From Lentilactobacillus kribbianus (GTDB lineage: Bacteria > Bacillota > Bacilli > Lactobacillales > Lactobacillaceae), in contig NZ_JABEQQ010000002.1 in NCBI RefSeq assembly GCF_013184075.1, positions 186,001 through 250,000 of the forward strand: 64,000 nucleotides of DNA. Reading direction: 5' to 3'. Shown here in pieces: positions 4,957-55,133 of the stretch. Under the pieces are notes generated by a model, which saw only the letters and a program-made list of their open reading frames with translations, did no database searches and was not told the origin of the DNA. Each line of letters opens with the position of its first letter. The stretch's first letter is position 1. The position numbers and the translations under genes are program-made.

Positions 4957-5631
4957 TTAAGCATTGACTGGCATAGATAACTGGATTTGATAAATAACGC
5001 CTTTGTTCTTTAAGGTCTGCTTAATCTGCTGATAATCATAATTTAGAGTAAGCAGGGCAATTATTAGATTCTTAACCTTATTGACGGCATCCCGCTCTTT
5101 AACACTTAGGTATTGAGTTAAACTCCGGTATTGGGGGATGTTTCGCTCTTTTCTTAACTGATTAGCATTAACGCCAAGGGCTTGCTTATAGATAAGCCTG
5201 TTAAGATTAGAATAGATATACTTATTATCAGCCAATGAACTAGCCTTAATGGCATCTCCCAAATCCTTAGAAACTACTTTGCCTTGATCGTAACTGATTC
5301 GCATTCTAGCAATTTCATCCCGCATATCACAAAAGGCGTCTACTAAGGCAACTTTAAAATTCTCAACACGTTCTGTATTTCTTAAAAGTGTTAGTAACAA
5401 AATCGCCTGTTTTTCGTTTAATATGAAAGTTTTTTCTTTATTGTCTGCGATTTTAAATCGCACTGGAGCTGACCTTTGTAGCTTTTTCATTTTTCTATTA
5501 ATTACTTTATTTACTGAACGATGTTGGATTCCCGCATACTCGGCAATAATATCGCTAGTCGTATATGGTTCAGCGTTCACATCGTTAGAATTTAGAAATA
5601 CTAGTTTGTCAGTCATGAAATTAAAGTCCAT
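4957..5631 (-). CDS. Rha-family phage regulatory protein
   Basis: The protein is 224 aa. The first ~120 residues show the pRha pattern: YTTSDIIAEYAGIQHRSV, an INRKMKKLQR basic stretch, FILNEKQAILLLTLLRNTER and LVDAFCDMRDEIARM. The C-terminal half is a separate helical domain (LRKERNIPQYRSLTQYLSVK) seen in phage antirepressor-like proteins. Such proteins are phage or satellite regulators thought to act on early gene expression or as antirepressors. The start at 5631 follows AAAGGATGG. Part of its 3' end is repeated at 35-54. Confidence 0.82.
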   Translation of the reverse strand: MDFNFMTDKLVFLNSNDVNAEPYTTSDIIAEYAGIQHRSVNKVINRKMKKLQRSAPVRFKIADNKEKTFILNEKQAILLLTLLRNTERVENFKVALVDAFCDMRDEIARMRISYDQGKVVSKDLGDAIKASSLADNKYIYSNLNRLIYKQALGVNANQLRKERNIPQYRSLTQYLSVKERDAVNKVKNLIIALLTLNYDYQQIKQTLKNKGVIYQIQLSMPVNA

Positions 5632-5659
5632 AATATAGCCATCCTTTCAATAATTTACT

Positions 5660-5690
5660 AGCTCGCTGGCTTATGCTGGCGGGCTTTTTT
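5660..5690 (+). terminator. Rho-independent terminator reading rightward
   Basis: AGCTCGCTGGC pairs with GCTGGCGGGCT (with three G-U pairs) and is followed by TTTTTT on the plus strand. It lies between two leftward genes, so it faces against the operon. It may stop antisense transcription from entering the Cro/CI control region. Confidence 0.6.
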
Positions 5691-5694
5691 GCGT

Positions 5695-5877
5695 TTAAAC
5701 GTGTAATTCTTTGGTAAGTTCATCAATCGCCTTTAGTACTCGTTCTTTGCGTTCGTCGTTTAACGGTGTCCGCAACCAAACTGAAAAGCGACTATCCGAA
5801 ATGCCTACTTTTTCTGCAACTTCCCAATTTCTTAAACGTGCTTGCTTAATTTTTGTTCTAATAGTATTATTTGACAA
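5695..5877 (-). CDS. Cro-like HTH regulator, 60 aa
   Basis: The best start is TTG at 5877, placed 7 bases after AGGGGAG; a GTG at 5916 would overlap the operator. The product starts SNNTIRTKIKQARLRNW and has a compact HTH (NWEVAEKVGISDSRFSVW) followed by a short helix, like small phage regulators that oppose CI. It is transcribed divergently from the CI-like repressor gene across a 160-bp control region with three copies of a 9-base operator candidate, which supports a genetic-switch role. Confidence 0.75.
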   Translation of the reverse strand: MSNNTIRTKIKQARLRNWEVAEKVGISDSRFSVWLRTPLNDERKERVLKAIDELTKELHV

Positions 5878-5906
5878 TTTTATCTCCCCTTCACTTTCTG
5901 ATTTTT

Positions 5907-6006
5907 TAGTGAACACTATTTAATTAAAAATATATTTTTAATGGACAAATAAATCTTAATTTATTGTTCACTATATGTCAATAATAAAAATCATTGATGT
6001 TCTCTA
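5907..6006. promoter_or_regulatory. Divergent Cro/CI control region with three operator candidates
   Basis: TAGTGAACA at 5907-5915, its reverse complement TGTTCACTA at 5965-5973, and the variant TGTTCTCTA at 5998-6006 form three half-site copies. The third lies inside the spacer of the rightward promoter TTGATG (5994-5999), 17 bases, TATTAT (6017-6022), so a repressor bound there would block the CI gene's own promoter. The leftward promoter is probably around TTGTCC near 5945. Confidence 0.6.
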
Positions 6007-6039
6007 AAAAAGCATATATTATAAAAGGGAGGTGAGTTT

Positions 6040-6945
6040 ATGGATTCCAAAATAAAATCAAATATTCCTGAGTTCTTAAAGGAAAAAGGTATTACGGTTA
6101 GCGAGTTAAGTAAGGGAACGGGATTATCTAGAACTACATTAACTGATTTGAGCAAATCAGAATACATCCCGAATAAAACTAGGATTGAAACATTAACTAA
6201 AATATCTGAATATCTTAATATTCCAATGGTTAATTTCTTTGGGATTAAAGAAGTTGGATTTGAATTAATAGAAAATTTTAGAATTTATGATGATAACTTT
6301 TTAGCAAGCAAATCGAAGCATATAAAAAAAATAGTAAATAGCAGAAAAAATGTTTCCGCCGAACCTAGAATTATCTTAGGCATAGCGTTCTTAAAAGATG
6401 CAAAAAGCGAAGATTATAAAAGTGAACAAGGCATTTATCCTACCGCTTACTTAGGTATTGAAGGAGATTATTTAAGGTTTCAATTATTGTCCAAAATGGA
6501 TCGAAGATTAATTGCTTCTTCCATTGAGGCAATAGGAGGATCAATGGAAATTTTAGATGGTAAATTTTTAACGGAAGATAACTTATATTTAAAAAATTCA
6601 TCTGAACCTAAAGAATTATATGAGCGCACGGTTTATTCTCCTAAAACTGCTGATACTTTTCTAAATTTAATTTTAAGAATTCCATTTTTTAAAAATCTAT
6701 CATCTGAATTAACTATTCCCAATCAAGAAAAAAGTTTTGTAACGAAGATTGAAGTAGCATATTCAATAATTAGATTTGCTAAAGAACCTAAACAATCTCA
6801 AAAAAATAATTTAAGCCAGTTTTACATTAAAGAAGACTCTCAAGGATTTATACAAGAACGAGGTAGTTATTTAGCTGCCGAGATTGCGAGCGCTATTTTA
6901 AATAACGATGATTTGTTTGATGTACTGGATAGTAAAAATAACTAA
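6040..6945 (+). CDS. CI-like satellite repressor
   Basis: The protein is 301 aa with a GGGAGGTGAGTTT ribosome-binding site. Residues about 13-58 are an XRE-type helix-turn-helix (ITVSELSKGTGLSRTTLTDL). The remaining 240 residues carry neither a LexA/S24 autocleavage motif nor an HExxH ImmA-type peptidase motif, and I recognise no domain. It is probably the master repressor, analogous in position to SaPI Stl: same direction as int, divergent from the early operon. Long non-peptidase C-terminal domains in such repressors sense a helper-phage protein in known satellites; that is inference here. Confidence 0.8.
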   Translation: MDSKIKSNIPEFLKEKGITVSELSKGTGLSRTTLTDLSKSEYIPNKTRIETLTKISEYLNIPMVNFFGIKEVGFELIENFRIYDDNFLASKSKHIKKIVNSRKNVSAEPRIILGIAFLKDAKSEDYKSEQGIYPTAYLGIEGDYLRFQLLSKMDRRLIASSIEAIGGSMEILDGKFLTEDNLYLKNSSEPKELYERTVYSPKTADTFLNLILRIPFFKNLSSELTIPNQEKSFVTKIEVAYSIIRFAKEPKQSQKNNLSQFYIKEDSQGFIQERGSYLAAEIASAILNNDDLFDVLDSKNN

Positions 6946-7593: not shown

Positions 7594-7599
7594 ATATAC

Positions 7600-7663
7600 G
7601 TCCAAATCCTGAAGACTCTAAAAGCTGGTAATTAAACTTAGTTGAGGGGCTAAGATTTGGAGG
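7600..7663 (+). promoter_or_regulatory. Structured leader, copy A, sequestering the ribosome-binding site
   Basis: TCCAAATC (7601-7608) pairs with GATTTGGA (7654-7661) over 8 bp, and CTTAG (7637-7641) with CTAAG (7650-7654). The closing stem's 3' arm merges with the GGAGG Shine-Dalgarno sequence of the secreted protein gene, so folding would hide it. The internal core CTGAAGACTCTAAAAGCTGG recurs with small changes before three other genes (8790, 10277, 11626). Confidence 0.55.
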
Positions 7664-7670
7664 GTTTACC

Positions 7671-8546
7671 ATGAAGTTTAAGCATTACATATTAGCAGGC
7701 GTTACAGCTCTATCATTCGGGATGGTTGTAAATACATTAACCCCTGATACCGCATTAGGTTCTAGGTATTATCAACCATTTAAAAACGTTCGATACTCTA
7801 TGCCTGCTAGTTGGCGGGGGACTTACTATAATTCGTACGGCGATACCATGAAAGTAAACAAGTATTCTATTTATACTAATGGTCAGGCTGACTATAAGAG
7901 TAGTTGGTCAGGCTGGCGCAAACTTGCTTTTGCTAAAGTCAGCAAAAAGTACTATACACTAAACGCATATGCGACTATGGGAGCCAATAGTAGCCGTCGT
8001 TGGAAGATGTATAGAAAAGGTGGAAATACATATTTGTATCATATTGGAGCTATGAATTCCCGTGCTAAGTGGAAAAAATATGTAAAGCCAATAAAATATA
8101 AAACTGCCAAATATAATGGTTTCTATTTTGATGACTATTCATCTGCTTACCTACAAGCAGATTATGGTTCACAAAAGTTATATACTTCTTCATCTAGTGC
8201 CCAAAAGAAATCAGGAAAGCATATTACTGTAAAGAGTATTTACCACAAATATTATGCTAAATGGGACAACGAGGGTAAGGACGACGTTCTAAGAATTAGA
8301 TATGGCTCTAAAACTTATTTTATAAAAGCTAACGGCGAATTTCAGCCATATAATAGTTGGTTTGATAGTTCCATAAAAAGAATATATTCTCCGTATAGCC
8401 CTAGTTCTAAATCAAAAATTGTATTTCCACATGGAGAAAAATACTCTAAAGCTAAGTATTGGAGTAAAGTACAATATTTTCGAGGCGGGACTTTAGACAC
8501 CAATAGTTGGAAAATGAATAATGGTAAATGGGTTTCTGAATATTAA
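7671..8546 (+). CDS. Secreted basic protein, 291 aa
   Basis: The first ~30 residues (MKFKHYILAGVTALSFGM onward) form a Sec signal peptide. The mature part is very rich in Tyr, Lys, Ser and Trp and lacks cysteine, an LPxTG anchor or a catalytic motif I can name. An early segment MPASWRGTYYNSYGDT resembles the segment IPQKLRGCWRAKDNYH of the secreted protein 10727-11065, suggesting a shared small beta-barrel-like unit. The signal peptide is nearly identical to those of 10347-10694 and 10727-11065. It is controlled by leader A and followed 7 bases later by a mini tRNA-like structure. Function unknown; extracellular or surface-bound by inference. Confidence 0.75.
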   Translation: MKFKHYILAGVTALSFGMVVNTLTPDTALGSRYYQPFKNVRYSMPASWRGTYYNSYGDTMKVNKYSIYTNGQADYKSSWSGWRKLAFAKVSKKYYTLNAYATMGANSSRRWKMYRKGGNTYLYHIGAMNSRAKWKKYVKPIKYKTAKYNGFYFDDYSSAYLQADYGSQKLYTSSSSAQKKSGKHITVKSIYHKYYAKWDNEGKDDVLRIRYGSKTYFIKANGEFQPYNSWFDSSIKRIYSPYSPSSKSKIVFPHGEKYSKAKYWSKVQYFRGGTLDTNSWKMNNGKWVSEY

Positions 8547-8553
8547 GTAAACA

Positions 8554-8599
8554 TCCCTTATCTGGTGATTAAATAACGGTTCGATTCCGTTAAAGGGAT
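8554..8599 (+). ncRNA. Mini tRNA-like structure 1 (no anticodon arm)
   Basis: TCCCTT (8554-8559) pairs with AAGGGA (8593-8598) as an acceptor stem. AACGG/CCGTT (8575-8579 with 8587-8591) closes a 7-base loop TTCGATT, a canonical T-arm directly abutting the acceptor strand. Between the acceptor and T-arm is only TCTGGTGATTAAAT, reminiscent of the D-loop of tmRNA. No anticodon or D-stem fits in 46 bases. It begins 7 bases after a stop codon. A second copy with compensatory stem changes is at 11529-11572. Confidence 0.65.
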
Positions 8600-8659
8600 T
8601 AAACCAAGTAAAAAATGATTCATGCTAAATTTGCACCAATCACTTTAGTTTGATAATGT

Positions 8660-8749
8660 TACCACGTTGTACCACCAGTGTACCACGTTACCAAATCTCT
8701 AATCCCTTGGTATATAAGGGATGTACCACGATACCACGTTATACCACGT
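8660..8749. repeat. Second iteron cluster, inverted, upstream of int
   Basis: Copies of TACCACG(T), the reverse complement of the iteron at 674-774, occur at 8660, 8670, 8681, 8724, 8732 and 8742. They again form two sets of three, around a core containing CCTTGGTATAT. The core is part of a palindrome, ATCCCTT/AAGGGAT (8702-8708 and 8716-8722). This could be a second origin, an incompatibility or regulatory site for the helicase, or the trace of a rearrangement. Confidence 0.65.
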
Positions 8750-8789
8750 ATTTTATAAACTTTTAAAATTAATATATACATACATACCA

Positions 8790-8825
8790 GTCCAATCCTG
8801 ATGACTTTAAAAGCTTGGTCATCCC
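8790..8825 (+). promoter_or_regulatory. Leader motif, copy B, upstream of int
   Basis: GTCCAATCCTGATGACTTTAAAAGCTTGG is a variant of the repeated leader core (positions 8790-8818). Here GATGAC (8800-8805) pairs with GTCATC (8818-8823) to form a small hairpin instead of the long closing stem of copies A and C. The ATGCCTTGCGCCGG repeat follows at 8836-8849, before the integrase start. Confidence 0.5.
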
Positions 8826-8835
8826 GTAACATAAC

Positions 8836-8849
8836 ATGCCTTGCGCCGG
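8836..8849. repeat. ATGCCTTGCGCCGG repeat, copy 2
   Basis: This is an exact copy of the 14-mer at 4645-4658. It ends 22 bp before the integrase start codon, so a protein bound here could control int translation or transcription. The excisionase-like protein is one candidate binder, by inference only. Confidence 0.6.
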
Positions 8850-8871
8850 TACGATATGAGAGGGATAAATT

Positions 8872-10032
8872 ATGACAAATATTAAAGAGTATCAAGACAA
8901 AGACGGTAACACGTTATTTCAATTTCAGTTATATTTGGGTACTGATCCATTAACTGGAAAGAAGAAGCGAACAACCCGCCGTGGTTTTAAGACACAAAAA
9001 GAAGCCCGCCTTGCGTTATCTCGATTAGAGATTCAACTACAAAAAGGTGAGCTTAATAGTATGGCCAATCAAAATTCTACTTTTAATGAAGTATACGACT
9101 TATGGTTTACGCAATACAAGCAAACCGTTAAAGAAAGTACATGGGTGACTACTGAAAGAATATTCAGGTTACACATTACGCCAGTGTTTGGCGATTATCG
9201 TATTTCTAAGATCACTATTAGGCATTGTCAGCAAGCTATTAACGACTGGTTTAATGCTGGACTGTCAAAGTATCATACCTTTTTAAACTATGTGGGTAAG
9301 GTATTGGACTTTGCTATTAACATTGGTCTGATTAGTTATAATCCAGCTAAACGAGTGATTGTTCCTAAGAATAAGAATGATCGCTCTAGGGATAATCTGG
9401 AAAATTATTATAGCAAAGATGAACTTAAACACTTCTTTGAATGCTTACAAGATGATGACAATGCTCCGCAAGCATATCCATTCTTTAGGTTACTGGCCTT
9501 TAGTGGGATGCGTAAGGGTGAAGCTTTGGCATTGACGTGGAAAGATATTAATTTTAGGGATAACACCATTTCTATTAATAAAACTCAATCACGTGGTGAC
9601 AATGCTAAACTGGTGATTCAATCGCCTAAAACAAGGCGGTCTAATCGAAATATTTCCATTGACCCGACAACTGTCTCGGTACTTCATCATTGGCAAATAG
9701 AACAACGAAAATTACTGTTACAACTAGGCTTCAATGTGAACCAAAAAGAAAGTTATGTGTTTACTAACGAGCGGGGCGAGATGTTGCAACCGTCTAAACC
9801 CCGTAAGTGGTTAGAGCATACCTTAAACCGATATGATTTAAAACATGTAACGGTTCATGCCTTTAGACACACTTATGCAACGCTGGCGTTTGAGTCAGGT
9901 TCAAGCGTCAAAGCAGTTCAAGAACAATTAGGACACTCTAGTTACAACACTACTTTAGATATATATACAGCAGTCACTAAGCCCGTAAAAAATGAAACGA
10001 GCAACCGACTAGCTAAGTATGTAAATTTTTAG
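8872..10032 (+). CDS. int: Tyrosine-recombinase integrase
   Basis: The protein is 386 aa. The N-terminal AP2-like arm-binding region (1-60, with GKKKRTTRRGFKTQKEA) is followed by a SAM-like core-binding domain (70-165) and a catalytic domain. Catalytic residues are R214 (SGMRKGE), K253 (PKT), H329 and R332 (HAFRHT), H355 (LGHSS) and Y365 (DIYT), all present. ATG at 8872 follows GAGAGGGAT. It would integrate and, with an excisionase, excise the satellite. Same direction as the CI-like repressor, as in Gram-positive PICIs. Direct 12-bp repeats follow at once and may be arm-type sites. Confidence 0.95.
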   Translation: MTNIKEYQDKDGNTLFQFQLYLGTDPLTGKKKRTTRRGFKTQKEARLALSRLEIQLQKGELNSMANQNSTFNEVYDLWFTQYKQTVKESTWVTTERIFRLHITPVFGDYRISKITIRHCQQAINDWFNAGLSKYHTFLNYVGKVLDFAINIGLISYNPAKRVIVPKNKNDRSRDNLENYYSKDELKHFFECLQDDDNAPQAYPFFRLLAFSGMRKGEALALTWKDINFRDNTISINKTQSRGDNAKLVIQSPKTRRSNRNISIDPTTVSVLHHWQIEQRKLLLQLGFNVNQKESYVFTNERGEMLQPSKPRKWLEHTLNRYDLKHVTVHAFRHTYATLAFESGSSVKAVQEQLGHSSYNTTLDIYTAVTKPVKNETSNRLAKYVNF

Positions 10033-10054
10033 GGGTAGTCAAAGGGGTAGTCAA
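10031..10054. repeat. Tandem 12-bp repeat after int
   Basis: AGGGGTAGTCAA occurs twice back to back (10031-10042 and 10043-10054), the first overlapping the integrase stop. Short direct repeats beside int are typical of arm-type integrase binding sites; no experimental support. Confidence 0.5.
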
Positions 10055-10057
10055 ACA

Positions 10058-10082
10058 TAAAAAAATAGCCCCTAAAAGGGCT
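10058..10082 (-). terminator. Minus-strand terminator next to int
   Basis: AGCCC (10067-10071) pairs with GGGCT (10078-10082); on the minus strand it is followed by ATTTTTTTA. It would stop leftward transcription entering the integrase gene. Confidence 0.5.
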
Positions 10083-10088
10083 GCAAAT

Positions 10089-10154
10089 GCTGATATATAA
10101 GCATTGTTAGGATACGGGGGTCAGAACCAGTATACCCAACTAGTGTATATCAGC
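10089..10154. repeat. 9-bp inverted repeat in the presumed attachment region
   Basis: GCTGATATA (10089-10097) and TATATCAGC (10146-10154) flank 48 bases that include GGGGGTCAGAACC. Attachment sites normally lie just beyond the integrase, so the satellite's right junction may be here. The matching left junction is not in the window, so no core can be named. The rest of the 10083-10276 gap shows no gene. Confidence 0.3.
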
Positions 10155-10276
10155 CGTTATCATTAGCAGTTAAATGCCTTGGTACCGGCTTTTCTTATGT
10201 AATCTAATAAGTAAATTAAAAGTTATATGATGAAATTTAAAATACGTTTTTAAAACCACACAATCAAATAAGCTAC

Positions 10277-10337
10277 GTCCAAATCCTGACGACTCTAAAA
10301 GCTGGCAATTAACTTAGTTGAGGGGCTAAGATTTGGA
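10277..10337 (+). promoter_or_regulatory. Structured leader, copy C
   Basis: This is a near-identical copy of leader A: TCCAAATC (10278-10285) pairs with GATTTGGA (10330-10337), enclosing the core CTGACGACTCTAAAAGCTGG and the CTTAG/CTAAG hairpin. The signal-peptide gene starts 9 bases later. Conservation with copy A runs from the leader through the first codons. Confidence 0.55.
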
Positions 10338-10346
10338 TGATTTACC

Positions 10347-10694
10347 ATGAAGTTTAAGCAATACATATTAACGGGATTAACCGCTCTGACATTTAGTAGC
10401 ATTATGGCCACATCCAGTATTACCGCCAGCGCTCATAGTTATACTTGGTGTTTACGTCCACACTGGGTAACTACTACTAAGCGGGTTAAGATCGCAAAAA
10501 TTCACAATACTATTCCTCGTGCTTACAGTTACAAGGTCAAAAACTACACTGTAAAAAAGGAGACTCATTTAAAAATTCATCATGGATCTAGCTTTTTATG
10601 GCTATCGGAAAGTAAACTGTTCAATACCAACAGTTATTATACTTATGCTGTTTATAATACCAAAGGCCATTGGTTTAAAACCGGCATCAGATAA
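10347..10694 (+). CDS. Small secreted basic protein, 115 aa
   Basis: A signal peptide (MKFKQYILTGLTALTFSS, cleavage probably after ASA near residue 29) precedes an 85-residue basic, Tyr/His/Lys-rich mature chain (KVKNYTVKKETHLKIHHG). No catalytic or anchoring motif is visible. The signal peptide and the leader upstream closely match the 291-aa protein at 7671, while the mature chains differ, as if a common 5' unit had been joined to different bodies. Function unknown. Confidence 0.7.
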   Translation: MKFKQYILTGLTALTFSSIMATSSITASAHSYTWCLRPHWVTTTKRVKIAKIHNTIPRAYSYKVKNYTVKKETHLKIHHGSSFLWLSESKLFNTNSYYTYAVYNTKGHWFKTGIR

Positions 10695-10726
10695 TTAAAT
10701 AATTTATGTATTGGGAGTCTATCAAA

Positions 10727-11065
10727 ATGAAATTAATTAATGTTATCTTAACTGGTGTTACAGCTTTATCCTTAGGAATGATTGTTAATGCATCCACAGC
10801 CAATGCTGCTAAATGGCATACATCAGCCATCCCTCAAAAATTGCGTGGTTGTTGGCGTGCTAAAGATAATTATCATTACGTGTTTAAAATAACCAAGTAT
10901 ACATTTAAATATTCTGGTGAGAAAACAAGTAAGAAAGTCAAATGGCGTTATCTGGGAAAAAATAAATATAGTTTGAAAGACAAAAATGGATCGATTATTC
11001 ATGTTCATTATATTGGTCGCCACAAGTTAACATCAAATTCATATTGGCATACGTACCGTAAATAA
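10727..11065 (+). CDS. Small secreted basic protein, 112 aa
   Basis: ATG at 10727 follows GGGAG at a good distance; an upstream in-frame ATG at 10706 has no ribosome-binding site. The signal peptide MKLINVILTGVTALSLGM ends near TANAA. The mature ~84 residues (IPQKLRGCWRAKDNYH, FKITKYTFKYSG) look like a small beta-rich domain common in lactobacillus surface proteins, with an xRGxW-type start like the MPASWRG part of the 7671 protein. Gene 10347 ends 32 bases upstream, so they may be one transcript. Confidence 0.7.
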   Translation: MKLINVILTGVTALSLGMIVNASTANAAKWHTSAIPQKLRGCWRAKDNYHYVFKITKYTFKYSGEKTSKKVKWRYLGKNKYSLKDKNGSIIHVHYIGRHKLTSNSYWHTYRK

Positions 11066-11083
11066 TTTTTGTTACTTGCCCCG

Positions 11084-11134
11084 GCAATTTTCATGAGGAC
11101 CATGTAGCCACATAAAGAGTAAATTAAAAATTGC
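11084..11134 (+). promoter_or_regulatory. Leader hairpin before the DUF805 gene
   Basis: GCAATTTT (11084-11091) pairs with AAAATTGC (11127-11134), closing a 35-base loop just before the AAAGGAGG Shine-Dalgarno sequence. The loop starts with CATGAGGAC, which shares TGANGAC with the core of the other leaders. It may be a divergent member of that leader group. Confidence 0.35.
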
Positions 11135-11151
11135 GAAAGGAGGTGAATAAC

Positions 11152-11517
11152 ATGGTTGAATCATACAAACGTTTCTGGCATAATATTACTAATTTTTCAG
11201 GGGTTGCTAACCGATCTGATTACTGGTGGCCAATTATCATCAACTACATTTTGGGCGGAATTATTATTGCCATTATTCAATTAGTGGTTGGTCATCCTAT
11301 TGATAGCATCTATAATGTAACTGATTTTCATCTTAATATTATTTCTAAGATAGTAGCTTTTATTGTTTGGTTAGGGACTTGGTCATTAAAAGTACGTCGT
11401 TTACACGATACTAATCGTTCAGGCTGGTGGATTTTAATTAGTATTATTCCACTGATTGGTACCATCTGGTTCTTTATATTAATGGTATTACCATCCAAGC
11501 GAAGTCGCTGGAATTAA
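11152..11517 (+). CDS. DUF805 family membrane protein
   Basis: ATG at 11152 follows AAAGGAGGTGAATAAC, so the product is 121 aa. It has the DUF805 signature: a front FWHNITNFSGVANRSDYWWP segment, several hydrophobic spans, and the conserved VRRLHDTNRSGWW loop near the end, then a last span. DUF805 proteins are small inner-membrane proteins of unknown function, often mobile or multi-copy. Eleven bases after its stop begins a mini tRNA-like structure. Confidence 0.85.
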   Translation: MVESYKRFWHNITNFSGVANRSDYWWPIIINYILGGIIIAIIQLVVGHPIDSIYNVTDFHLNIISKIVAFIVWLGTWSLKVRRLHDTNRSGWWILISIIPLIGTIWFFILMVLPSKRSRWN

Positions 11518-11528
11518 AAGTAAGGGCG

Positions 11529-11572
11529 TCCCGTTTTGGTGATTAACAGCAGTTCGATTCTGCTGACGGGAT
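11529..11572 (+). ncRNA. Mini tRNA-like structure 2 (no anticodon arm)
   Basis: TCCCGTT (11529-11535) pairs with GACGGGA (11565-11571) as a 7-bp acceptor stem ending in a U-G pair. AGCAG/CTGCT (11548-11552 with 11560-11564) closes the T-loop TTCGATT. The linker is TTGGTGATTAAC. Compared with copy 1 the T-loop and the TGGTGATTAA linker are the same, while both stems change on both strands and keep pairing. The base after the acceptor is T and no CCA is encoded. Confidence 0.68.
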
Positions 11573-11625
11573 TAATGAAAAAGGAAACTGTTTTAGTTCT
11601 GGTTAGGTACTTTTTTACTTTCCAA

Positions 11626-11655
11626 GTCCAAATTCTGACGACTAAAAAAGCTGGG
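11626..11655 (+). promoter_or_regulatory. Leader motif, copy D
   Basis: GTCCAAATTCTGACGACTAAAAAAGCTGGG (11626-11655) is a degenerate copy of the repeated leader core, 54 bases after the second mini tRNA-like structure and 18 bases before a 66-aa membrane protein gene. The long closing stem is mostly lost. Confidence 0.45.
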
Positions 11656-11673
11656 AGTTTAGGGGGAATCACA

Positions 11674-11874
11674 ATGGATATAATTATTTTAATCGGCTCA
11701 ATTATTTTTGGTATAGGTATACTTATATATGTTTTAAATACTAAAGTTCGTTATGGCTTTTTTACTCATTACCAAAGTCGAAATAAAGGATTAGCTTGGA
11801 TTTCAGCGCTACTAATCATCATAGGTTTGGGAATAATTATTGTGAAAGCTTACTTAAATGGACAATTAGGTTAG
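11674..11874 (+). CDS. Small membrane protein, 66 aa
   Basis: ATG at 11674 follows AGGGGGAATCACA; an in-frame start farther upstream would overlap the tRNA-like structure. The protein starts MDIIILIGSIIFGIGILIYV, has a polar middle (KVRYGFFTHYQSRNKG) and a second span (AWISALLIIIGLGIIIV): two transmembrane helices in a hairpin. No family is recognised. Confidence 0.6.
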   Translation: MDIIILIGSIIFGIGILIYVLNTKVRYGFFTHYQSRNKGLAWISALLIIIGLGIIIVKAYLNGQLG

Positions 11875-36284: not shown

Positions 36285-36568
36285 ACAATAATTATTAAAA
36301 ACAAATGAGAAGATGAGTAGAAGGTCAGACACTGTTTAGAGAGCTTGGTAAGGTGAAAGCAAGCCGGTAGAGATTTTCGAATATGGTCTTTGATGTTTTG
36401 TTTATTAATGAACTTGCAAGTAAATTAATAATGGTTGACGCTCATTATTGCGTTAATAGAGAAATTACTCTTAAGGCTGATTTTAATTAATCAGTAAATA
36501 AAGGTGGTACCGCGAGGTCTTTCGCCCTTTAGTTGTTGCAACAACTATGGGACGAAAGACCTTTTTGT
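36285..36568 (+). promoter_or_regulatory. T-box leader, methionine specific
   Basis: The T-box sequence AGGTGGTACCGCG is at 36502-36514. The terminator GGTCTTTCG/CGAAAGACC with T-run is at 36516-36567. The specifier loop reads GAATATGG, placing ATG (Met) at 36383-36385, with AGTA on the opposite side. Uncharged initiator/elongator tRNA-Met would thus turn on the downstream methionine transporter. Specifier and operon content agree. Confidence 0.9.
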
Positions 36569-39281: not shown

Positions 39282-39647
39282 TTGGAGTTTAACTTTAATA
39301 GTTCTGAACCAATTTATCGGCAAGTGGCAGATCAGATCAGAGAAGCCATTTTGACGGGGAGTTTTGCTGAAGAAACTCAAATTCCTTCAACCACCGAGGT
39401 GTCCAAACAATTTCATATTAATCCGGCAACGGTGTTAAAAGGAATGAATTTATTGGTGGATGTAGGATTAATTGAAAAGAAACGAGGACTAGGAATGTTC
39501 GTGACTGCTGGCGCAAAGAACCGAATTAAGCAGCAAAAACGAGATAATTTTTATGATGATAAAGTAGCCAAATTAGTCAAAGAAGCAATTAATTTGGGAA
39601 TTTCTGCTGAAGATCTCAATCAAATGATTCAACGGGGGTATGAATAA
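39282..39647 (+). CDS. GntR-family regulator (YtrA type)
   Basis: TTG at 39282 lies 10 bases after AAGGGAGG, giving 121 aa. The winged HTH (PIYRQVADQIREAILTGS, IPSTTEVSKQFHINPATV) is followed by a short helical tail, the layout of YtrA-type GntR regulators. It begins an operon with an ABC ATPase and a membrane protein, which such regulators usually repress in response to cell-envelope stress. Confidence 0.88.
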   Translation: MEFNFNSSEPIYRQVADQIREAILTGSFAEETQIPSTTEVSKQFHINPATVLKGMNLLVDVGLIEKKRGLGMFVTAGAKNRIKQQKRDNFYDDKVAKLVKEAINLGISAEDLNQMIQRGYE

Positions 39648-40525
39648 TGAGTGTATTAGACATTAATCACGTTGGTAAAAAATTTGGCGACAAAGTAGTA
39701 TTAAGAGACATTAATTTAAGATTATCCGAAAATAAAATATATGGAGTATTAGGGCGCAACGGAGCTGGTAAAAGTACCTTATTAAATATCATGACCAATC
39801 GAATTTTTCCTTCTAACGGTAAAATTACTATTGATGGTGAACCGGTTGATAATAATGATGCTCAATTGAGTAAGATGTACTTGATGAGTGAAATTAATTT
39901 ATATCGTGATAGTGATCGGTTGAGTAAAATTATTGATGATACTGAAATGCTTTATGGCAATATTGATCGGGAATTAGTAAACGATTTAGCCACTAAATTC
40001 AATTTGGATTTAGCACAAAAATTTGGTAAGTTATCTACGGGTTATCGAAGTATTTTTAAATTAATTATAGCAATGTCTTTACCAGTAGAATACGTTTTGT
40101 TAGATGAACCGGTGTTGGGACTAGATGCTAACCACCGCGAATTATTTTATTCAGTTTTGTTGGAATCCTTTAGTCAACGACCACGAACATTTGTAATTTC
40201 CACCCATTTAATTGAAGAAATAACTAATATCATTAGTGATGTCATTGTCATTAATCAAGGTGAAGTGGTCTTAAATGATTCTGTGGAAAATGTTACGGCA
40301 AAGGCGGTGGCTGTGGTTGGTCCTACAAGTGCTGTAGATCAATACATAATGGGATTACATGTAATTGGGCATGAAAATATTGGTCAATTAAAAGCTAGCT
40401 ATGTTTTTGATGAGTTACCAGATGATCGACAAATACCTGATACAGTAACGATTACACCATTAGATTTACAAAAATTATTTATTAATTTAACTGATTACAC
40501 GGGAGGTGCTAAGGATGAAAACTAA
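39647..40525 (+). CDS. ABC transporter ATPase
   Basis: The protein is 292 aa: Walker A GRNGAGKST, Walker B YVLLDEPVLGLD, and a signature of the LSTGYRSIFK kind in place of LSGGQ, as in YtrB-like ATPases. A C-terminal ~70-residue extension follows. Its ATG overlaps the GntR stop, and its end overlaps the membrane protein gene. Probably an exporter or stress pump with the next gene; substrate unknown. Confidence 0.88.
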   Translation: MSVLDINHVGKKFGDKVVLRDINLRLSENKIYGVLGRNGAGKSTLLNIMTNRIFPSNGKITIDGEPVDNNDAQLSKMYLMSEINLYRDSDRLSKIIDDTEMLYGNIDRELVNDLATKFNLDLAQKFGKLSTGYRSIFKLIIAMSLPVEYVLLDEPVLGLDANHRELFYSVLLESFSQRPRTFVISTHLIEEITNIISDVIVINQGEVVLNDSVENVTAKAVAVVGPTSAVDQYIMGLHVIGHENIGQLKASYVFDELPDDRQIPDTVTITPLDLQKLFINLTDYTGGAKDEN

Positions 40526-54904: not shown

Positions 54905-55133
54905 ATAAGATAGTAAGGTAATGAAGCGTTGATCAAGAGGATTAGATGGTCTTTTCTAGCTAAAGAGAAAAAACATTTGCTGAAAGTTTTTCTAGAAAAA
55001 CATTGAAGGTTGCTTGAGAGCTTTTAGGCCTATTTGGGCCAATATGAATAAAATATTAAGTGGAGTTTAATAACTCAATTTAGGTGGTACCGCGAGCATT
55101 CGTCCTATTAGTTTAGGAGGAATGCTTTTTATT
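54905..55133 (+). promoter_or_regulatory. T-box leader, valine specific
   Basis: The T-box sequence AGGTGGTACCGCG is at 55082-55094 and the terminator GCATTC/GAATGC with T-run at 55096-55131. AGTA near 54912 faces GAAGGTTG in the specifier loop, giving GTT (Val), in agreement with valS downstream. Rise of uncharged tRNA-Val would open valS expression. Confidence 0.9.

Follow-up and report, generated by a model that had tools for sequence, protein, structure and literature searches.

The tRNA-like domain of bacterial transfer-messenger RNA (tmRNA) comprises an acceptor stem, a D-loop, a T-arm and a long helix 2 and has no anticodon arm, and the bacterial Y RNA YrlA (RF02553), which is bound to a Ro-like protein, carries a tRNA-mimicking module. 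In pre-tmRNA a 12-nt stem and the T-loop are read by RNase P, an enzyme that measures 12 bp (PMC10731613; this and all other papers are cited from excerpts). The human mascRNA/menRNA element (Rfam RF01684) lies 3' of another RNA, at the 3' ends of MALAT1 and MEN-beta; the two guanosines of its reduced D-arm form with the T-arm an elbow that is read by RNase P and RNase Z, and its cleavage by both enzymes and the addition of CCA are known (PMC11693755). In mitochondrial tRNA punctuation, RNA elements at gene borders are cut by the same two enzymes (PMC4394434). Bacterial RNase P also cuts phage and mRNA sites, including phi80 M3 RNA, P1/P7 C4 RNA, HisCD mRNA and the pbuE riboswitch, which the excerpts present as single cases (PMC11143913, PMC10731613). 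Here we describe, by contrast, a recurrent, covarying family of tRNA-like elements with tRNA-type 3' ends. These mini-tRNAs, two of which lie in a 64,000-nucleotide stretch of the Lentilactobacillus kribbianus genome (contig NZ_JABEQQ010000002.1, positions 186,001 to 250,000; hereafter the window), probably work like tRNA punctuation and mascRNA.

Each of these likenesses has its limits. As with mascRNA, the mini-tRNAs stand 3' of another RNA and have a small D-arm, but they are bacterial or phage-borne, occur in many copies behind protein genes and lack an anticodon arm, whereas mascRNA has an equivalent of the anticodon stem. The layout of mitochondrial punctuation is similar to that seen in phage contig G1157 (L and G numbers denote loci and genome stretches retrieved for comparison); mitochondria, however, use true tRNAs, whereas mini-tRNAs cannot decode and their cuts are predicted here from sequence. 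With tmRNA they share the missing anticodon arm but neither the tag-coding mRNA part nor the long helix 2. An earlier reading of the window from its letters alone (the original prediction) had noted this resemblance, which stands as a likeness only: ARAGORN finds 0 tRNA and 0 tmRNA genes in the window, missing both elements, and Rfam finds no tmRNA around them. In Rfam searches of the stretches around both elements at E values up to 10, no family covers either one, RF00005 and RF02553 included, so that neither ARAGORN nor RF00005 at E 10 detects a canonical cloverleaf with an anticodon arm; a PK-BYV match at 11493-11529 ends on the first two bases of mini-tRNA 2. RF01684 gives no match in the two window stretches up to E 10, nor at the element positions of eight loci, where its sole row lies over a true tRNA in L032; a weak RF02553 row in L032 also lies over true tRNAs. 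The tests made do not place the mini-tRNAs in a known RNA family, and among the matches listed in the open-access literature, subscription papers and supplements being outside its scope, there is no description of such a family.

Both elements are present where they had been predicted, each with an acceptor stem, a T-arm with the loop TTCGATT, and no anticodon arm:

8553-8599, + strand: mini-tRNA 1, 47 nt, scoring 69.2 bits with covariance model R1 (see below), of which it was itself a seed.
8554-8559 with 8593-8598, + strand: acceptor stem of mini-tRNA 1, TCCCTT/AAGGGA, with a possible outer pair A8553-T8599.
8560-8569, + strand: tiny D-arm of mini-tRNA 1, AUC[UGGU]GAU, assigned on the basis of family-wide D-stem covariation.
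8574-8592, + strand: T-arm of mini-tRNA 1, T-stem TAACGG/CCGTTA, loop TTCGATT at 8580-8586.
8553/8554 and after position 73 (8599; U74 is 8600), + strand: cuts in mini-tRNA 1 predicted for RNase P and RNase Z, respectively, from the 12-bp ruler and the end signature.
11528-11572, + strand: mini-tRNA 2, held out of R1 and recovered by it at 41.9 bits (E 3.9e-8 in the whole genome).
11529-11534 with 11566-11571, + strand: acceptor stem of mini-tRNA 2, TCCCGT/ACGGGA, with an outer G-T.
11535-11542, + strand: weak D-arm of mini-tRNA 2, UU[UGGU]GA.
11547-11565, + strand: T-arm of mini-tRNA 2, T-stem CAGCAG/CTGCTG, loop TTCGATT at 11553-11559.
11528/11529 and after position 73 (11572; U74 is 11573), + strand: cuts in mini-tRNA 2 predicted for RNase P and RNase Z, respectively, on the same grounds.

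Mini-tRNA 1 begins 6 nt after a stop codon that ends at 8546, and mini-tRNA 2 begins 10 nt after one that ends at 11517, which agrees with their predicted position just behind stop codons. The original prediction of 44-46 nt elements with a seven-position acceptor stem and a 5-bp T-stem was right in its layout, but the best stack has 6 acceptor and 6 T-stem pairs, giving 12 bp; a seventh acceptor pair combined with a 5-bp T-stem is ruled out in mini-tRNA 1 by an A.A mismatch. Similarly, the predicted linker is there but is not a plain one, since family-wide covariation identifies it as a tiny D-arm, the GG of which, in mini-tRNA 1, would dock on the T-loop.

Because single-sequence folding energy proved too weak to serve as evidence for these elements, it was rejected for that purpose, and the case is built on comparison. 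Covariance model R1 was seeded with five natural sequences (mini-tRNA 1, L009, L020, L041 and L044), the alignment of which has double changes at 10 of 13 pairs; model R2 was built from 35 matches, and both models are without D-stem pairs. A larger alignment, A6, comprises 98 matches (E up to 0.3, a few of them partial) with 16 pairs in three helices. In A6, 93.5% of 1423 cells are paired, and double-change cells number 547, against 155 when shuffled, which bears out the compensatory change that had been proposed from the two window copies. The covariation score is 0.830 compared with 0.190 in shuffles, and slid structures are at most 52.3% paired. A6 was fitted to the acceptor and T helices, the D pairs being absent from the models; of the 92 rows examined (out of 98), 82 have a linker that forms a D-arm of 2 bp or more, compared with ∼49% in shuffles. 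In the D-stem, 96.4% of lettered cells pair and all 3 pairs have double changes, with 21-47 sequences gapped there. The family layout is thus an acceptor stem, a D-arm of 2-4 bp whose loop, mostly UGGU, bears a GG, and a T-arm with the loop UUCRANN, without an anticodon arm, and the features shared with canonical tRNAs are the ∼12-bp acceptor/T stack, the T-loop, the GG in the D-loop and the tRNA-type 3' end. Acceptor and T-stem pairs vary freely across copies. An aminoacylation identity for the family was considered and rejected, as acceptor features are not shared.

Covarying homologues were found, so that the outcome that would have refuted the original prediction did not occur, and the family proved far wider than two copies. 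Simple pattern scans gave two exact look-alikes in the same genome and others in a member of the genus (L009), in a Cyanothece contig (L037) and in viral contigs; a wider genome pattern scan gave three stretches, only that in Cyanothece having the acceptor stem. Model R1 matched 35 of 301 Lactobacillaceae genomes at E 0.01, a count that includes tRNA-Leu and doubtful weak matches, and 15 of the 301 had a best E of 1e-4 or lower. With R2, 25 of 295 Lactobacillales genomes matched at E 1e-3; six did so through tRNA-Leu, and seven of the 19 that remain lie outside the family to which the window belongs. The same model matched 2 of 244 genomes at E 1e-3 in a phylum sample around the Cyanothece locus, and 1 of 348 at E 1e-4 in a Bacillota sample, this one being L. 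kribbianus itself. In the samples searched, the mini-tRNA family is concentrated in Lactobacillales and also occurs in phage contigs. All these counts are lower bounds, because searches of more than 40 genomes scored only 17-25 candidates per genome. Some genomes hold several copies; that of L. kribbianus has five model matches at E 0.05, one of which opens a three-variant cluster (L088).

A structural scanner, which finds exactly two matches in the whole window, namely mini-tRNAs 1 and 2, gave 76 distinct matches in 127 sources (947,068 bases, the window and the retrieved loci), many of which were fetched because they hold such elements and some of which overlap. The same sequences reversed gave one match, as did 1,894,136 bases of first-order resampled sequence. 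Three matches were dropped by hand (L081:1499, and L056:106 and L121:2421, the latter two with doubtful linkers), and after merging of near-copies 73 copies remained. In a larger set of 86 copies, used for end-signature and terminator counts, L081/L082 and L138-L143 were skipped, being tRNA-Leu by eye.

Two features of these copies point to the enzymes of tRNA maturation. First, pairing in the 73 copies, counted by distance from the T-loop, falls from 0.88 at position 12 to 0.60 at position 13 and 0.45 at position 14; only the drop is informative, since the scanner itself demands 11 pairs. Second, position 74, again counted from the T-loop and used by neither scanner nor models, is U in 70 of 73 copies and in 83 of 86 in the larger set, position 73 is A in 51 of 86, and the family lacks an encoded CCA. 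Of 45 distinct tRNAs of the same genome, read from 30 loci, 44 were matched at the T-loop; CCA is encoded in none of these, A73 is found in 31 and U74 in 37. The elements thus end like the real pre-tRNAs of this host, with U at position 74, mostly A at position 73, and no CCA. A C after position 73 suppresses RNase Z. The first base given by ARAGORN, which we take as position -1, is U in 35 of the 44 host tRNAs, and in 37 of 73 elements that position is likewise U. The elements are likely substrates of RNase P and of 3' tRNA processing, largely as originally proposed, in that the predicted cuts at 8553/8554 and 11528/11529 fit the 12-bp ruler and the 3' ends match those of CCA-less host tRNAs. 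An uncut, cis-acting structure in the 3' untranslated region (UTR), stabilising the mRNA end or blocking exonucleases, would likewise be compact, would lie just behind stop codons and could precede terminator-like hairpins directly, as some copies do. A plain hairpin would suffice for that, however, and this explanation, which we consider improbable, fails to predict that pairing should fall off beyond 12 bp, that a GG and a T-loop should be present, or that a U should stand at position 74, outside the helix.

The placement of the copies is also far from random. A start between -8 and 30 nt after a same-strand stop codon is seen in 33 of 72 copies overall and in 30 of 43 outside six cluster loci, which were separated by hand after their context had been read; the same test gave 446 of 14400 for random positions and 252 of 3331 for random positions outside open reading frames (ORFs). 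The nearest downstream ORF is on the same strand in 37 of 55 copies, and copies that delimit genes in co-directional transcripts are found outside the clusters and in G1157, but not in the arrays described below. Genes upstream of copies belong to varied Pfam families (DUF805, DUF4352, Abi_2, DUF3862, DUF308, SpoIIM and helicase, among 30 window and neighbour proteins). Position is conserved. In G018, from another species of the same genus, mini-tRNAs lie 7 and 9 nt behind homologues of both genes that precede the window elements, the proteins being 38% identical to the 291-residue protein upstream of mini-tRNA 1 and 63% identical to the DUF805 protein upstream of mini-tRNA 2; at these matching positions the stems have changed and pairing is kept. 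The same is true of counterparts at matching positions in L101 and L106, where the stems differ yet remain paired. Might the elements instead be tRNA-shaped, riboswitch-like leaders for the gene that follows? Eighteen of 37 same-strand downstream ORFs begin 27-60 nt after the element, and a tRNA-like riboswitch fold is known for yjdF (PMC9142559), but the downstream genes are varied, there is no conserved core beyond the tRNA elbow features, and mini-tRNA 1 is 272 nt from the start of the integrase gene that follows it; we regard this possibility as very unlikely.

Phage contig G1157 (L250) encodes a phage DNA polymerase and a helicase. Its first 13 kb hold 12 mini-tRNAs among ∼20 same-strand ORFs, with none on the other strand there, and the distance to a stop codon is -3 to 23 nt for 10 of them. 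Two of these mini-tRNAs are found only at a relaxed scanner setting, and a thirteenth relaxed match (15716) was excluded as lying inside a 382-aa ORF, though R2 scores it. Each mini-tRNA is followed by a similar hairpin-forming sequence and then usually by an ATG; the hairpin stems vary in a paired way (TGGCA..TGCCA, TGGTA..TACCA), an observation made without a control.

We favour, with moderate confidence, the reading that mini-tRNAs are dedicated tRNA punctuation marks that would be excised by RNase P and RNase Z and so set mRNA ends. In a transcript that reads past the stop codon, the D-loop GG and the T-loop would form a tRNA-like elbow; RNase P would measure 12 bp from this elbow and cut a few nucleotides past the end of the upstream coding sequence, and RNase Z would cut behind position 73. 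The RNA released, 46 nt for mini-tRNA 1 and 44 nt for mini-tRNA 2, may then receive a tail from the CCA enzyme. The upstream mRNA would thus gain a defined 3' end near its stop codon, and the message downstream would begin at a new 5' end. According to the excerpts (PMC11693755, PMC10731613), RNase P and RNase Z read the elbow and the 12-bp helix. Drifting stems alongside a conserved GG, T-loop, helix length and U74 are what selection for release by these enzymes would be expected to leave, and the selected function would be the punctuation itself, not the excised RNA.

Several observations weigh against this reading, the strongest against a pure punctuation role being the arrays. On an L. salivarius plasmid there are 10 model matches in 5.2 kb, and more by the scanner, with few genes between copies, which mRNA punctuation leaves unexplained, and similar arrays occur in related viral records. 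These arrays, together with the tRNA-like ends, would suit an alternative in which the excised mini-tRNA is itself what functions: ending in CCA and unable to decode, it would mimic a tRNA and bind or titrate a host or phage enzyme that handles tRNAs, its release from mRNAs being mere biogenesis. We think this unlikely, though less so than the other alternatives, given the free variation of the acceptor and T-stem pairs, the lack of any conserved identity element other than the tRNA-wide ones, and the varied genes behind which copies outside arrays stand; the earlier suggestion of a tRNA decoy gained no supporting evidence in this analysis. Further, 17 of 72 copies lie inside predicted ORFs of at least 50 aa, mostly small ORFs in array loci, and a terminator-like site lies within 70 nt in 13 of 86 copies (75 of 1720 in the control), so that some copies may lie where transcripts end. 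Unlike host tRNAs, the elements mostly have U or A at position 1 and a C-rich 5' strand, which makes the efficiency of RNase P on them uncertain. In the viral set, which still holds pieces of true tRNAs (four in L231 overlap ARAGORN tRNAs and L227:211 resembles one), U74 is kept less strictly, in 52 of 76. Folding energies are weak, with z -1.46 for mini-tRNA 1 and -3.04 for mini-tRNA 2, and with flanks the minimum-energy fold of mini-tRNA 1 is not the tRNA-like one. An archaeal RNase Z acting on arm-less pre-tRNAs required a mature 5' end, according to excerpts of PMC7479834, and for the window elements both cleavage and the CCA tail are predictions from a sequence signature.

If the punctuation reading is right, bacteria and phages would possess a dedicated, protein-free mRNA 3'-end signal that depends on RNase P and RNase Z; mitochondrial tRNA punctuation would be its counterpart, though here the elements are not tRNAs. 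The family would show what these enzymes minimally require of a natural substrate, namely an elbow, a 12-bp stack and U74, would account for gaps between genes in prophages and phage operons, and would add an RNA family overlooked by ARAGORN and Rfam at the tested loci. In phage T7, RNase III sites create hairpin-capped 5' ends. More tentatively, mini-tRNAs could be a separate RNA class in phages, plasmids and lactic acid bacteria that amounts to a general mRNA-cutting code, in which essential tRNA maturation enzymes of the cell would trim messages behind their stops and leave hairpin-capped 5' ends downstream, while CCA-tailed mini-tRNAs from arrays might have a second role on tRNA-handling enzymes.

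The genes beside the two window elements are as follows:

7671-8546, + strand: gene upstream of mini-tRNA 1, encoding a 291-aa protein with a signal-like N-terminus (by eye) and no Pfam family.
8872-10032, + strand: tyrosine integrase (PF00589), the next gene of annotated size 3' of mini-tRNA 1.
11131-11517, + strand: gene upstream of mini-tRNA 2, encoding a DUF805 protein.
11674-11874, + strand: small ORF (MDIIILIGSIIFG...) 3' of mini-tRNA 2, within a 112-aa ORF that starts from a TTG.

No + strand terminator-like site was found between either mini-tRNA and its next gene. With a phage Rha-type regulator, a Cro/CI-type helix-turn-helix protein and the integrase encoded within 5015-6945 and 8872-10032, the left part of the window resembles an integrated element of phage-related origin. 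An integrase lies downstream of copies in four loci, the window, L092, L095 and L122, as might be expected if the elements were leftovers at the DNA level, such as attachment sites, tRNA 3' fragments derived from integration, or a mobile repeat. Compared with 46 distinct tRNA sequences of the host, read at 30 loci of a genome that has 54 tRNA matches, mini-tRNA 1 has an exact match of at most 9 nt and mini-tRNA 2 one of at most 14 nt, however, and on these grounds identity with an attachment site or host tRNA 3' fragment was rejected. As the window has no exact repeat of 15 nt or more, and the covariation includes the D-arm, which a 3' fragment would lack, an origin of this kind is the least probable of those considered.

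A conserved leader, GTCCAAAnnCTGAnGACTnTAAAAGCTG, precedes four window genes (7597-7635, 8786-8824, 10274-10312 and 11623-11661). It appears in 12 distinct rows of the scan, three of them 12-13 nt 3' of a mini-tRNA (L101, L106 and L110), and its UCC could pair with the GGAGG behind it. A leader motif near some copies, GTCCAAA..TGAnGACT..AAAAGCTG, is conserved in sequence, and no covarying fold was found either for it or for the leader of the window genes. At gathering thresholds Rfam reports just two T-box leaders in the window, at 36296-36532 and 54920-55110. Behind the mini-tRNAs at L122 7645-7692, L150 1502-1543 and in L125 stands a hairpin of the CCCC..GGGG type that has a T-rich tail; those of L150 and L125 also have a AGAACATA stretch, which we take to be LexA-box-like, and in L122 an integrase follows.

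The L. salivarius plasmid also carries three elements scored as tRNA by Rfam, which by eye have a full D-arm and no anticodon arm, and one of these lies 345 nt before a ROOL RNA; excerpts of PMC12286853 place ROOL and GOLLD near tRNA islands. At L086 28523-31226, on this plasmid, D-armed tRNA-like genes without an anticodon arm, a TnpB gene and a ROOL RNA stand in a row, the tRNA-like genes not being reported by ARAGORN. Another repeat unit, like TTCTGAACCTAGTTGAATTGACATAG..TTGAAGAC, occurs in several copies in the array region (L086 16700-17000 and 19930-20050). In two marine viral contigs, glutamine-II riboswitches lie ∼60-75 nt upstream of a mini-tRNA (L019 4248-4302 and L020 5259-5322).

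Four named cyanophages related to the viral loci were scanned, S-CBP4, S-RIP2 and S-CBP3 whole and S-SM2 in part. The sole strict scanner match among them is at 39614-39660 of S-RIP2 (L153), on the minus strand, S-CBP4, S-CBP3 and the scanned part of S-SM2 giving none. It falls in a gap between annotated genes, with a start codon 11 nt further on, and has an acceptor stem GGCCAGC/GCTGGTC, a D-arm-like linker and A73-U74; it is followed by ATT and a hairpin, GGGTC..GACCC, the loop of which contains the start codon of the next gene. Model R2 reports nothing there up to E 1, and we count this match as a candidate and not as a family member. Finally, longer tRNA-like elements, with the acceptor TGAGGTA/TACCTCA and inserts that replace the anticodon arm, can be recognised by eye at L088 5190-5350 and L091 13470-13550.

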